Origin: Nesterenkonia ebinurensis
GTDB taxonomy: Bacteria > Actinomycetota > Actinomycetes > Actinomycetales > Micrococcaceae
Assembly: GCF_008711175.1 (NCBI RefSeq)
Contig: NZ_VWNF01000041.1
Coordinates: 62,001-126,000, forward strand
Reading direction: 5' to 3'
DNA: 64,000 nt
Shown here: positions 19,417 to 23,009 of the stretch, piece after piece
Position numbering within the stretch: the stretch's first letter is position 1
How the letters are laid out: each line of letters starts with the position of its first letter
The notes under the pieces: generated by a model
What the model was told of the DNA's origin: nothing
The model's database searches: none
Seen by the model: only the letters and a program-made list of their open reading frames with translations
Program-made: the position numbers and the translations under genes

Positions 19417-20073
19417 ATGCGCAAACTCTTCCAGGAAGACCTCCACAATCTGGGCGATCAGCTCAGCGATATCGCCGTATTGGTCACCGAGGCGATGGAG
19501 AAGGCCTATCGCTCCTTCGAGATGGCCGATGTGCAGCTGGCCGAGGAGGTTATCGCTGCTGACGCCCGGATCGACGCCAAGCAGAGTGACCTGGATGAGA
19601 AGGCCATCGAGCTGCTGGCCCTGCAGGGCCCGGTGGCTTCTGACCTGCGGTTGATCGTTGGGGCGCTGCGGATGTCCACCTCCCTGGAGCGGATGGGTGA
19701 TCTGGCCCGGCACATCGCTCAGCTGACTCGATTACGCTACCCGGACACGGTGGCCCCTGCTGCGCTGGTGGAGGTGTACCGGAAGATGGCGGAGAAGGAC
19801 GTGGCGATCGCCAAGAAACTGGTGGAGTTGATGGTGACGCGTCAGCTGGAGCTGGTGGCTGAGATCCACTCGCTCAACGAGCAGATCAATGAGATGCACG
19901 CCGGGATCTTCATCACTATTGCCCGTCCTGGCTGGGAGGCCTCGGCTGCCACCACCGCCGATGTCACTCTGGCCAGCCGGTACTTCGAGCGCTTCGGCGA
20001 CCACGGTGTCTCAGTGGCCAGGAAGATTCAGTACCTGGTCACCGGCGAGTGGGAGCCGGAGCCCGCAGCCTGA
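19417..20073 (+). CDS. phoU: phosphate transport system regulator PhoU
   Basis: A 218-residue helical protein with two PhoU three-helix repeats (about 10-100 and 115-205), each with the metal-binding E/DxxxD-type pattern, for example MGDLARHIAQL and RYFERFGDHGVSVARKI. PhoU restrains phosphate uptake by the Pst transporter and keeps the SenX3-type kinase in its inactive state. AGGAAAGGA lies upstream of the ATG. It diverges from senX3-regX3 across the PHO-box-like repeats. No pst genes are in the window. Confidence 0.96.
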   Translation: MRKLFQEDLHNLGDQLSDIAVLVTEAMEKAYRSFEMADVQLAEEVIAADARIDAKQSDLDEKAIELLALQGPVASDLRLIVGALRMSTSLERMGDLARHIAQLTRLRYPDTVAPAALVEVYRKMAEKDVAIAKKLVELMVTRQLELVAEIHSLNEQINEMHAGIFITIARPGWEASAATTADVTLASRYFERFGDHGVSVARKIQYLVTGEWEPEPAA

Positions 20074-20102: not shown

Positions 20103-20927
20103 ATGACGACGACGCTGCCGCTGAACTCAGGTGCCCATATCCCCCAGATCGGCTTCGGGACCTCCCAGGCCGCAGATGCTGCTCGCTCTGTGGCTGAGGC
20201 GGTGCGGGCCGGGTACCGGCATATCGACACCGCCCAGATGTACGGCAATGAGACCGGTGTCGGTGAGGGCGTGCGCGCCTCCGGAGTGCCGCGGGAAGAG
20301 GTCTTCGTCACCACCAAGCTCAACAACGGGCACCATGATCCGACCGATGTGCACCGCACCTTCCAGGAGTCCCTCGACCGGCTGGGCTTCGACTATGTGG
20401 ACCTCTTCCTCATCCACTGGCCGCTGCCGTTCCTGAACACCGACTATGTGGACACCTGGAAGGCGATGCTCCAGGTGCAGGAGACCGGCCGGGCCCGCTC
20501 GGTGGGTGTCTCCAACTTCCAGCCGGAGCACCTGGAGCGGATCATCGCAGCTACCGGGGTCGTCCCCGCGGTGAACCAGATCGAGGTCCATCCCTACTTC
20601 GCCAATAACGAGCTGCGTGAGTTCTCCAAGGCCCGCGGAATCATGGTTGAGGCCTGGAGCCCGCTGGGCAAGGGCACCGAGCTCAGCGACCCGGTCATCG
20701 CCGAGCTGGCGGCGAAGCACGGCCACGCGCCCGCCCAGGTGATCCTGCGCTGGCACCTGCAGCGGGGCGACGTCGTCATCCCCAAATCAGACAATCCGGA
20801 ACGCATCCGGTCCAATCTGGATCTCTCGGGCTTCGAGCTCACCGAGCAGGATATGGCCGCCCTGGATGCCCTGGACAAGGGTGAGGAGGGGCGGCGCAGC
20901 CCCCACCCGAATGAGTTCGGCAAGTAG
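20103..20927 (+). CDS. aldo/keto reductase (AKR5-like, 2,5-diketo-gluconate reductase type)
   Basis: A 274-residue NADPH-dependent aldo/keto reductase, full length. The catalytic Asp and Tyr are in HIDTAQMYGNE near residue 45, Lys in FVTTKLNN near 75, and His in FLIHWPLP near 108. The NADPH-binding C-terminal signature VVIPKSDNPERIRSNLD is present. It would reduce carbonyls on sugars or small aldehydes; the precise substrate is unknown. The ATG is preceded by GGATCGGGG; a longer frame overlapping phoU has no ribosome-binding site. It converges with the nuclease gene, with palindromic element A in between. Confidence 0.92.
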   Translation: MTTTLPLNSGAHIPQIGFGTSQAADAARSVAEAVRAGYRHIDTAQMYGNETGVGEGVRASGVPREEVFVTTKLNNGHHDPTDVHRTFQESLDRLGFDYVDLFLIHWPLPFLNTDYVDTWKAMLQVQETGRARSVGVSNFQPEHLERIIAATGVVPAVNQIEVHPYFANNELREFSKARGIMVEAWSPLGKGTELSDPVIAELAAKHGHAPAQVILRWHLQRGDVVIPKSDNPERIRSNLDLSGFELTEQDMAALDALDKGEEGRRSPHPNEFGK

Positions 20928-20985: not shown

Positions 20986-21050
20986 TGGTGTGCTGAAATC
21001 CCGGGAAACAGCAGCACTTCAAACCGCTTGCGGCGGATTTCAGCACACCA
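20986..21050. repeat. palindromic element A flanking the nuclease gene
   Basis: Arms TGGTGTGCTGAAATCC (20986-21001) and its exact complement (21035-21050) enclose a 33-base loop that contains a second small hairpin, CCGC-TT-GCGG. The element resembles element B at 22163: both begin GAATGGTGTG, share TGAA-TCC arms, and carry GGAA or GGGAAA just inside. It lies 23 bases past the end of the nuclease gene. No T-run follows, so a plain terminator is less likely than a REP-like or mobile-unit end. Confidence 0.85.
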
Positions 21051-21073
21051 ACCTGCGGGATGCTCAGCCAGTA

Positions 21074-22045
21074 TCAGCGGTGTTGCCGTAGCAATCGCTC
21101 CAGGCGCGCGATCAGGGAGCGAAATCCCTCCTGCTGATCCACCCGGTTGGCCAGGATGACAGTCCAGCCTTCTGCCTCGAACGCTGCGTTGCGGCGCTGG
21201 TCCCGGGCCTGCTGCTCTGCTGTGAAGTGGTGTTGCCCCTCGTACTGCAGCACGATCTTCTGGTCGCGGTACCCAGCATCGCCTGTCGGAGAGTACGCAT
21301 CCCGAGGGTGAAGCTTGATCTGAAGCTCAGGCTCCCGAAGCCCTGCTGCAATTATGGCAAGCCTCATATAGGTTTCCGGTTCGGAGTCTGCCCCCACCCG
21401 GACCAGCTGCAATGCCTCCCTGGCCCGAGAAACACCTATCCGCCCGCGGCCAGCCCGAACGATGCGCTGAAGTTCCTCAACCGTGCACCAAGGGCGCTTC
21501 CGAGACTCAAGGCTGGGATGAGGTTGACGGACCAGCTGGTCACCGACGGCGACGAGTTCATGGACCATCAGCGTCTCAGCCAGTTCCAGGAACACGCGCG
21601 GTCCTGGCGAAAGCGCAGCACCTCGGAACTTCCACAGCTCCGGGGGATATTTCTTGGAGCGGTGGAAGACCACATCAGAGGCACCAGCGAGGGCAGGCGA
21701 ACGATTGAGCCCAGTGATGTGGATGCGCAGATCGTGCTGAAACCGGCGGGGAACCCTCAGCCCAAGACATCTCGCCGCCGTGAAGTGGCTGATCCAGAGG
21801 TTCCCGGACCGCACTGAGAGTGCCCGGGCCTTCGACAGCATGCCCTCAAGCAGCGTCTCAGACTCCCCTGAGGCGGTTCTATGATCCTGATCCAGTGGCT
21901 TGTGCCTATAAACTCCCCAGCTGATCCGTTCCACGTCTCGGGCCTGCAGACGTCCGCCCTCAACACCGTGTTGGGAAGCTTCTTCTCGAGTAAACACGGC
22001 GCCCAGTAGTTCTGGAGGCAGTGGATGCGGATTCCTCATACCCAC
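21074..22045 (-). CDS. AbiEi-like domain plus DUF559/Vsr-like nuclease protein
   Basis: A 323-residue protein of a type scattered irregularly through actinobacterial genomes. The N-terminus (about 1-55, FTREEASQHGVEGGRLQARDVERISWGVYR) resembles the winged-helix AbiEi antitoxin-type domain. The C-terminus (about 220-323) has SEPETYMRLAII, then YRDQKIVLQYEGQHH and ARDQRRNAAFEAEGWTVIL, the order of acidic residues and Glu-x-x-His expected for a DUF559/Vsr-like PD-(D/E)xK nuclease. It probably cuts or nicks DNA; a defence or selfish role is inferred. GTG is the likely start, five bases after GGTGGG. It has no partner gene and is bracketed by two homologous palindromic elements. Upstream DNA is AT-rich. 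Confidence 0.75.
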   Translation of the reverse strand: MGMRNPHPLPPELLGAVFTREEASQHGVEGGRLQARDVERISWGVYRHKPLDQDHRTASGESETLLEGMLSKARALSVRSGNLWISHFTAARCLGLRVPRRFQHDLRIHITGLNRSPALAGASDVVFHRSKKYPPELWKFRGAALSPGPRVFLELAETLMVHELVAVGDQLVRQPHPSLESRKRPWCTVEELQRIVRAGRGRIGVSRAREALQLVRVGADSEPETYMRLAIIAAGLREPELQIKLHPRDAYSPTGDAGYRDQKIVLQYEGQHHFTAEQQARDQRRNAAFEAEGWTVILANRVDQQEGFRSLIARLERLLRQHR

Positions 22046-22062
22046 AGAATCCCACCAAATGA

Positions 22063-22075
22063 GTCCAAAATGGAC
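22063..22075. promoter_or_regulatory. small palindrome before the nuclease gene
   Basis: GTCCA-AAA-TGGAC, perfect 5-bp arms, 18 bases upstream of the nuclease start. With the N-terminal winged-helix domain this could be an autoregulatory operator, which is only inference. Confidence 0.35.
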
Positions 22076-22089
22076 AAAAAGTGACTATC

Positions 22090-22098
22090 TGTGGATAA
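22090..22098 (-). promoter_or_regulatory. consensus DnaA box
   Basis: TTATCCACA on the minus strand matches the DnaA-box consensus exactly. It is a lone copy in the AT-rich leader of the nuclease gene. It may be chance, a regulatory site, or part of the cassette's biology. Confidence 0.35.
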
Positions 22099-22103
22099 AC
22101 AAG

Positions 22104-22120
22104 TCCTCCTAGCAGGAGGA
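22104..22120. promoter_or_regulatory. 7-bp-arm palindrome in the nuclease leader
   Basis: TCCTCCT-AGC-AGGAGGA is perfectly symmetric. It sits 59 bases upstream of the nuclease start, and it resembles a strong ribosome-binding site on the plus strand although no gene follows there. Confidence 0.35.
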
Positions 22121-22162
22121 TGAAGCAAGGATAGTTCTCGGTGCCGACCCTATCGGAGAGAA

Positions 22163-22226
22163 TGGTGTGTTGAATTCCTCGGAAGACTGCCGCGACTACG
22201 GCTATTCACGGGAATTCAACACACCA
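22163..22226. repeat. palindromic element B flanking the nuclease gene
   Basis: Arms TGGTGTGTTGAATTCC (22163-22178) and its exact complement (22211-22226) enclose a 32-base loop with an inner GCCG/CGGC hairpin. It has the same architecture and orientation as element A, with two differences among the 16 arm bases. It lies 117 bases upstream of the nuclease start and 37 bases past the end of gpmA. Confidence 0.85.
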
Positions 22227-22262: not shown

Positions 22263-23009
22263 TTACTTCTTACCCTGGTTGGCAACGGCCTGGATTGCCT
22301 CAGCAGCAGCCTCGGGGTCCAGGTAGGTGCCACCAGTGTTAACCGGTGTGAAGTTCTCGTCCAGCTGGTAGTGCAGCGGAATGCCGGTGGGGATGTTCAG
22401 TCCGGCAATGTCCTCATCGCTGATCCCATCCAAATGCTTCACCAGGGCACGCAGCGAGTTGCCGTGGGCGGCCAGCAGCACGGTCTTACCTGCCTTGAGA
22501 TCGCCGATCACCTCGGACTCGTAGTAGGGGATGAACCGCTCCACCACGTCCTTGAGGCACTCAGTCTTCGGCGCAGCCTCGCCCAGATCTGCGTAGCGAG
22601 CATCCCCGGACTGGCTGTAGGGATCCTCGGCGTCGATCTCAGGGGGAGGGGTGTCGTAGGAGCGCCGCCAGGTCATGAACTGTTCCTCGCCGTACTTCTC
22701 GCGCACCTGGGTCTTGTTCTTGCCCTGCAGAGCACCATAGTGGCGTTCGTTGAGCCGCCAGTCCCGCTTGACCGGGATCCACAGCCGGTCAGCGGTCTCC
22801 AGGGTCAGGTGCGCGGTGGTGATAGCGCGCTGCAGCAGCGAGGTGTGCACCACATCGGGCAGCAGGTTGTGCTCAGCCAGCAGCTGACCGCCGCGGGCGG
22901 CCTCAGCCCGGCCGGTCTCAGTCAGCGGCACATCCACCCAGCCGGTGAAAAGGTTCTTCTGGTTCCACTCGCTCTGGCCGTGCCGCAGCAGGATCAGGTC
23001 ATAGCTCAT
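22263..23009 (-). CDS. gpmA: 2,3-bisphosphoglycerate-dependent phosphoglycerate mutase
   Basis: A 248-residue glycolytic enzyme interconverting 3- and 2-phosphoglycerate. The phospho-histidine motif [12 protein letters not shown] is at the N-terminus, the second active-site Arg/Glu region is in [11 protein letters not shown] near residue 88, and the second His is in [12 protein letters not shown] near 183. I choose MSYDLILL with GGGAGC upstream; an ATG five codons earlier has no site. In many actinobacteria this gene sits close to phoU-senX3-regX3, as here, although the AKR and nuclease genes intervene. Confidence 0.97.

Follow-up and report, generated by a model that had tools for sequence, protein, structure and literature searches.

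Comparison of genome sequences showed that a DUF559/AbiEi-like nuclease gene in the window (the whole stretch of 64,000 nucleotides from Nesterenkonia ebinurensis that was analysed) belongs to a group in which each nuclease type appears to go with its own palindrome type, also across genera. The gene and its two flanking elements probably represent a resident, fast-diverging AbiEi-like/Vsr-like nuclease with a cognate family of REP-like palindromes. The organisation would be similar to that of REPINs and RAYTs, but with an unrelated enzyme and a mechanism of cutting and conversion. REP-like palindromes are common bacterial repeats. To our knowledge, the enzymes that go with them are HUH tyrosine transposases.

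The nuclease gene was located on the minus strand at 21074..22039 (coding 21077-22039, stop to 21074) and encodes 321 amino acids. The ATG at 22039 was chosen as the start, and a GTG at 22045 opens a longer reading frame. An AlphaFold2 model of the protein had a mean pLDDT of 93.9. The AbiEi-like N-terminal and middle part (residues 15-161; 21557..21997, minus strand) was assigned from a match to the PADLOC AbiEi model. The C-terminal Vsr-like/DUF559 nuclease domain (approximately residues 219-321; 21077..21385, minus strand) was assigned from DUF559 and REase_MTES_1575 profiles and from Foldseek. The window protein itself scored 16.5 bits against PF04480 (DUF559), under the cut-off of 20.6, and its AbiEi match was weak with an E of about 0.0039. 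In an alignment of 65 homologues, 54 gave a hit to the same AbiEi model, and the match was stronger in homologues than in the window protein. This alignment comprised the window protein and 64 of the 84 usable nuclease proteins obtained from 97 loci tried. Pfam searches at E <= 0.01 matched five families in the 65 members, with DUF559 in 41/65 and REase_MTES_1575 in 39/65, and none of the five was a HUH family. Defence profiles matched among the homologues included AbiEi, mREase_II and others; the AbiEi and REase matches were weak. E222, D254, H271 and D280 were identical in all 65 members and residue 267 was D or E throughout. We take this invariant E-D-H-D set to be the EDxHD signature. The best Foldseek match of the catalytic domain was the homing endonuclease I-Bth0305I (PDB 3r3p), with a probability of 1.00, an E of 0.024, a target TM of 0.71-0.74 and an identity of about 10%. 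By profile, I-Bth0305I was found only weakly (E 0.42), and the best solved sequence was the endonuclease-like 3hrl (E 0.00037). The likeness to homing nucleases proposed in the earlier note is in line with the identity of the best structural match, but its E value of 0.024 is modest. Homologues with E <= 1e-20 were present in 97/149 genomes of the family, and Micrococcus terreus held one with 33%. The window genome carried two diverged nuclease paralogues. One of these, at C1:28344, had a different palindrome pair of its own.

Eight neighbouring genes were scanned with protein families and comprised a kinase, phoU, an aldo/keto reductase, gpmA, DUF2516, tmk and others. The gpmA-type histidine phosphatase gene (22263..23009, minus strand) served as the anchor of the junction comparison. 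phoU was located at 19417..20073 on the plus strand, and in relatives the nuclease cassette sits between gpmA and phoU. The aldo/keto reductase gene (20103..20927, plus strand) was not found within about 1.5 kb around gpmA in the loci of 28 relatives. As noted before, a transposase was absent from these eight genes. An AbiEii-type nucleotidyltransferase partner was likewise absent from them, and a type IV toxin-antitoxin pair was rejected on that ground. RNA families recovered in the window at gathering scores were an SRP RNA and a tRNA only, and a reading of the palindromes as known RNA families was rejected accordingly.

Both palindromes were confirmed exactly at their noted positions and with the noted arm and loop lengths. 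Element 1 (65 nt; 20986..21050, no strand assigned) lies 3' of the nuclease gene, and its perfect 16-nt arms at 20986-21001 and 21035-21050 are separated by 33 nt. Element 2 (64 nt; 22163..22226, no strand assigned) lies 5' of the gene in the interval between gpmA and the nuclease, with perfect 16-nt arms at 22163-22178 and 22211-22226 and 32 nt between them. Both are members of one family, for which 12 sites were detected genome-wide. They share a 25-nt direct repeat of 84%, which bears out the claim that they are alike beyond the arms. The claim that they lie in the same orientation says little, because both are near-palindromes. Nested hairpins were present in both loops as described, but with 3-6 pairs they are short. 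Folding of the elements beat dinucleotide shuffles on all four strands (z -4.8 to -9.2), with none of 200 shuffles reaching an equal value. The exact arm pattern was matched four times in the window, each time within elements 1 and 2. With up to three mismatches, five matches were obtained against a shuffle mean of 1.08, and 2/100 shuffles reached five.

Matched palindromes were searched at the window gene and at 60 regions hand-picked from the upper part of the homologue match list, giving 61 nuclease genes. The selection left out contig-edge, partial and some other matches. Another 316 genes within the same fetched regions served as controls. Palindromes at the nuclease loci often lay on both sides, alike within a locus and differing between loci. 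Using a 10-mer criterion, a common palindrome on both sides was detected at 19/61 nuclease genes and 0/316 control genes. Palindromes of any kind flanked 27/61 and 7/316 on both sides, respectively. At an alignment score of at least 12, matched palindromes were present on both sides of 25/61 nuclease genes and 0/316 controls; lower scores admitted one control gene at 11 and two at 10. Since the other 36/61 nuclease genes fail this two-sided alignment test, the link between nuclease and palindrome is common and not universal. A class-wide search, which had no control genes and included one genome of the same family, detected a palindrome common to both sides at 12/28 loci. Nucleases of another family, f26 (L215, L216, L219, L224 and L229-L231), had palindromes holding GTTGATCATGGAG or close variants on one or both flanks.

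Similarity of the nucleases was correlated with similarity of the palindromes over the 40 loci at which a palindrome was close to the gene. The Pearson coefficient, calculated with same-genus pairs included, was 0.47 and was reached by none of 5000 permutations. The Spearman coefficient was weak at 0.14, so the signal rests on few closely similar pairs. Clearly the same palindrome was shared across genera by G135 with G071 and G047, and by G137 with G091 and G019. The genomes so joined were nearest or second-nearest nuclease neighbours among 39, and pairs with lower palindrome scores ranked anywhere. The G071 palindrome, CGACTGCTCCGT..TGTCGTT with up to one mismatch, was found in 6/149 genomes, with 0 for the reversed pattern. 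Nucleases with no less than 60% identity to the G071 enzyme were also found in 6/149 genomes, counting the query genome G071 and using a cut picked after the list was seen. Both sets had five genomes in common (P 6e-8, from kin genomes that are not independent). G123 had a single match to the palindrome arm, and G019 had the palindrome with a nuclease of 47%. All six G071-like nucleases were bracketed by close variants of the G071 palindrome. G091 and G019 each held at least two nucleases with different palindromes. The pairing of nuclease and palindromes after the manner of REP-linked transposases, as first proposed, stands as an association, with matched palindromes that recur and follow the nuclease type, but the enzyme is not of the HUH kind.

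Further copies in the window's own genome were searched with a sequence-only model of the element. It recovered 12 sites at E <= 0.01, two of them flanking the nuclease; ten of the 12 were found by construction, as the model was built from ten copies. Matches occurred in 3/30 genomes of the genus, own genome included; because 150 candidates were scored per genome, the numbers of copies are minimum values. Of the 12 sites in the window's genome, eight were outside the long reading frames called (one overlaps a gene end) and four were inside, at C1:250300, C9:31892, C22:245555 and C22:259362 of G000. The copy within a predicted oxidase reading frame displayed no clean insertion against solved homologues. 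For another internal copy, the best alignments began just after the element. No nuclease homologue was detected around the ten other copies in the 8-20 kb read around each, which contradicts the idea that copies are tied to DUF559 genes within this genome. The link between nuclease and palindrome, as read from the sequences, is one that emerges from comparison between genomes and not inside the window genome. By eye, the translated genes adjoining the own copies had no evident common function. Window-like palindromes were also present in G158 and G153 (loci L054-L079), and no nuclease was detected in about 1.5 kb around the fetched ones.

An AbiEi-like regulator might bind the palindromes at its own gene and at dispersed sites, while the nuclease acts elsewhere, for example on foreign DNA. 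This model was framed post hoc, in the light of published work on AbiEi (PMC3985639, PMC11062541). In Streptococcus agalactiae, the binding site of AbiEi is a perfect 11-bp inverted repeat, spaced by 27 nt and extending to 23 bp (PMC3985639), a geometry near the 16-nt arms and the 32-33 nt spacing in the window. A similar sequence at the origin of transfer of an ICE is also bound by a streptococcal AbiEi (PMC11062541). Because AbiEi binds similar inverted repeats (PMC3985639), palindrome recognition is plausible and a regulatory role stays the main rival. The AbiEi profile matches in the front part of the nuclease, the inverted repeat upstream of the gene (element 2) and the co-variation of site and protein, which would be expected here too, agree with such a role. 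However, the gene has a palindrome on each side, and the downstream one is often within 50 nt of the stop. The arm lengths of 55 strong flanking palindromes, 15-36 nt with a median of 23, also tell against it. In addition, solo palindromes exist without the gene, and copies adjoin genes that have no evident function in common. A purely regulatory role was considered unlikely on this balance, and a nuclease with cognate palindromes was retained as the preferred reading.

The gpmA junction was compared within the genus. gpmA was found in 29/30 genomes, and the nuclease adjoined it in 7/29 loci, the window's included. The gene looks resident because it occupies this junction in 7/29 genomes of the genus. 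The six other junction nucleases were 49-54% identical to the window protein and their gpmA 87-92%. Both flanks were readable in 6/7 junction genomes, G012 being cut by a contig end. Flanking palindromes of one genome had a median similarity of 35, in contrast to a median of 11 between same-side palindromes of different genomes (P 2e-4). In 5/6 genomes the own pair was more alike than the same-side palindromes of others. The exception was G154, with 25.5 for its own pair and 28.5 between the 5' palindromes of G154 and G169. The palindromes of G169 were imperfect and the 5' palindrome of G151 was weak. Concerted evolution of the bracketing palindromes is shown by this comparison.

Loci in different states gave a view of gain and loss. 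At the gpmA-phoU junction of G160, one of 22 loci without the gene, the nuclease was absent and one palindrome similar to that of G164 was kept, so that the gene-free junction with one element anticipated in the earlier note does exist. Several other gpmA loci had unrelated palindromes or terminator-like hairpins with short loops. The nuclease-free gpmA-phoU loci L241, L243, L245, L250-L252 and L255 held solo palindromes of other families, and the solo palindrome of G107 at gpmA-phoU resembled the one that accompanies the nuclease of G107 at another place. A second locus, in genus g19, was empty in G071, had one palindrome in G047, and had the series palindrome, nuclease, palindrome in G019 and G091; flank identity was 75-83% for G071 and 91-94% for the other genomes. 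A third locus carried the gene at the same site in all four g19 genomes, with flanks 85-91% identical. Here, little could be aligned as DNA between the nuclease of G071 and G047 and that of G091 and G019. Presence and absence of the gene at palindromes is shown by these comparisons.

The occurrence of empty, solo and full alleles at a locus whose flanks are 75-94% identical could also indicate that palindrome, nuclease and palindrome move as a unit by transposition or homing, the palindromes being the ends. The catalytic domain, nearest to a homing endonuclease by Foldseek, and the erratic distribution over 97/149 genomes point in the same direction. Against this, the gene was inherited at the same site in 7/29 genomes of the genus and in 4/4 g19 genomes, and the solo state is equally explained by recombinational loss. 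Homologues were also few on mobile replicons, with 1/50,697 phage records and 4/72,556 plasmid records, and a mainly phage- or plasmid-borne element was set aside for this reason. A search of viral contigs with a single peptide pattern confirmed no homologue. Movement as a composite cassette is therefore held to be quite improbable. The description of a cassette at a single site was too narrow, given the gene's presence at the junction in several genomes.

Dispersed copies numbered dozens in g19. With up to three mismatches, a related 23-base pattern was matched 33+38, 31+28, 23+25 and 6+5 times in four genomes, whereas its reversed form had 0 to 2 matches in all. Pairing of the arms was analysed in 17 dispersed copies from five genomes, chosen by intact arm ends, which favours paired copies. 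Two-sided changes within pairs affected 24 cells versus 9.5 (sd 2.6) in shuffles, and the covariation score was higher than in every shuffle. There was no excess in the number of pairs changed on both sides (6 versus 4.9 shuffled) or of further pair types (19 versus 18.7), so that two of five measures did not exceed shuffles. Maintained pairing of the palindrome arms is supported by part of the measures.

The age of the copies was judged from G091 and G019, which are about 93% identical. Counterparts were found for 17/17 and 16/16 copies in alignable sequence, and five more copies were outside it. Both counts refer largely to the same sites, and two G091 copies at L200/L201 were counted as common with one G019 copy. 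The copies are old, since each one within alignable sequence is matched in the second genome. Comparison of G091 with G019 yielded no clean insertion of a solo palindrome, leaving active mobilisation of the palindromes a conjecture. At three places read, whole genes differed between two palindromes. Where G091 had a gene between two palindromes, G019 had a single palindrome at L200/L201 and two neighbouring ones at L194/L195; at L196/L197 the gene set between the palindromes was a different one in each genome. These three places in close genomes have the look of cassette-like gene turnover between palindromes. At an orthologous place in G071 and G047 (L176:3823-3886 and L182 near 3166), the palindromes had the same outer ends and differing inner sequence, as if the interior had been exchanged.

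Ordinary terminators or mRNA-end hairpins beside the gene by chance would account for palindromes at gene ends and for the terminator-like hairpins at other gpmA loci. This explanation is highly improbable in view of the lack of matched two-sided palindromes at the 316 control genes under the alignment criterion, the window loops of 32-33 nt, and palindrome sequences that follow the nuclease and not the neighbours. A T-run after either arm was present in 1/55 strong flanking palindromes, and intrinsic terminators were set low for that reason. A terminator scan did not call the window elements; it took loops of 3-8 only and says little. A defence module, in which foreign DNA is the target of the nuclease while the palindromes label self or keep the enzyme inactive, would suit the AbiEi, mREase_II and other defence-profile matches and the strong divergence of the nuclease, but no partner gene was recognised among the eight scanned neighbours and solo palindromes persist without the gene, leaving it a very small chance.

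For the nuclease with its cognate palindromes, we infer binding, cutting, conversion and spread of the palindromes by the enzyme. The AbiEi-like part would recognise the inverted repeat, much like AbiEi at the promoter of its own gene. The nuclease part would then nick or cut at the palindrome or at a hairpin formed by it. Repair from another copy would homogenise the copies, resulting in concerted evolution, and might at times plant a copy elsewhere. Recombination between the two bracketing copies could remove the gene and leave one palindrome.

A bolder form of this reading is more doubtful. We tentatively propose, while regarding it as somewhat less than probable, a class of genome-resident systems in Actinomycetes, undescribed in the literature searched, that arose independently of HUH-based REPIN-RAYT systems. 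In these, cutting and conversion by an AbiEi-like, Vsr-like nuclease would cause its own palindromes to spread and to evolve in concert, and the palindromes would also serve as joints for the gain and loss of whole genes. In open-access literature, a body outside which most subscription journals and all preprints fall, no paper was listed whose title or start of abstract links nucleases of the DUF559 or MTES_1575 type with palindromes beside the gene or dispersed, and an earlier description may exist. If true, this would be a second, unrelated class of enzyme with cognate palindromes, and such a lifestyle would have arisen more than once. It would give a function to many genes annotated as 'DUF559' or 'AbiEi-like', which occur in 97/149 genomes of one family. 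It would also provide a natural series of nuclease-palindrome pairs from which recognition could be read in sequence and directly tested. What drives the nuclease to diverge so strongly while its locus is fixed is a question that can be tested.

Among known systems, REase_MTES_1575 (PF18741; PMC3710099) shares the Vsr-type nuclease domain matched by 39/65 homologues. There, the domain is found within a very large multidomain protein, and the stem 'palindrom' does not occur in that text. AbiE type IV toxin-antitoxin systems resemble it in the front part of the nuclease, to which the AbiEi model matched in most homologues. The present system differs in having no AbiEii among its neighbours, in the nuclease domain that follows the AbiEi-like part, and in palindromes that are two-sided and dispersed. 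I-Bth0305I is similar as the best Foldseek match (probability 1.00), and the homologues here hold the invariant E-D-H-D set. It is set apart by the E of 0.024, the identity of about 10% and the better profile match of 3hrl, and by the palindrome pair around the gene in the present case. The REPtron, including REPIN-RAYT and TIRYT (PMC3733652), is similar in that a lone gene has palindromes or inverted repeats at its flanks, in repeat-specific gene variants within one genome and in repeats dispersed in intergenic DNA. REP sequences are 20-40 bp units with GTAG or CGTC (PMC3733652), whereas single long palindromes with arms of 15-36 nt are found here. The window system is not filed as a REPtron because the HUH transposase is absent: the RAYT described there combines a HUH domain with a catalytic tyrosine (PMC3733652), and the nuclease family described here matches DUF559/MTES_1575 and AbiEi models.
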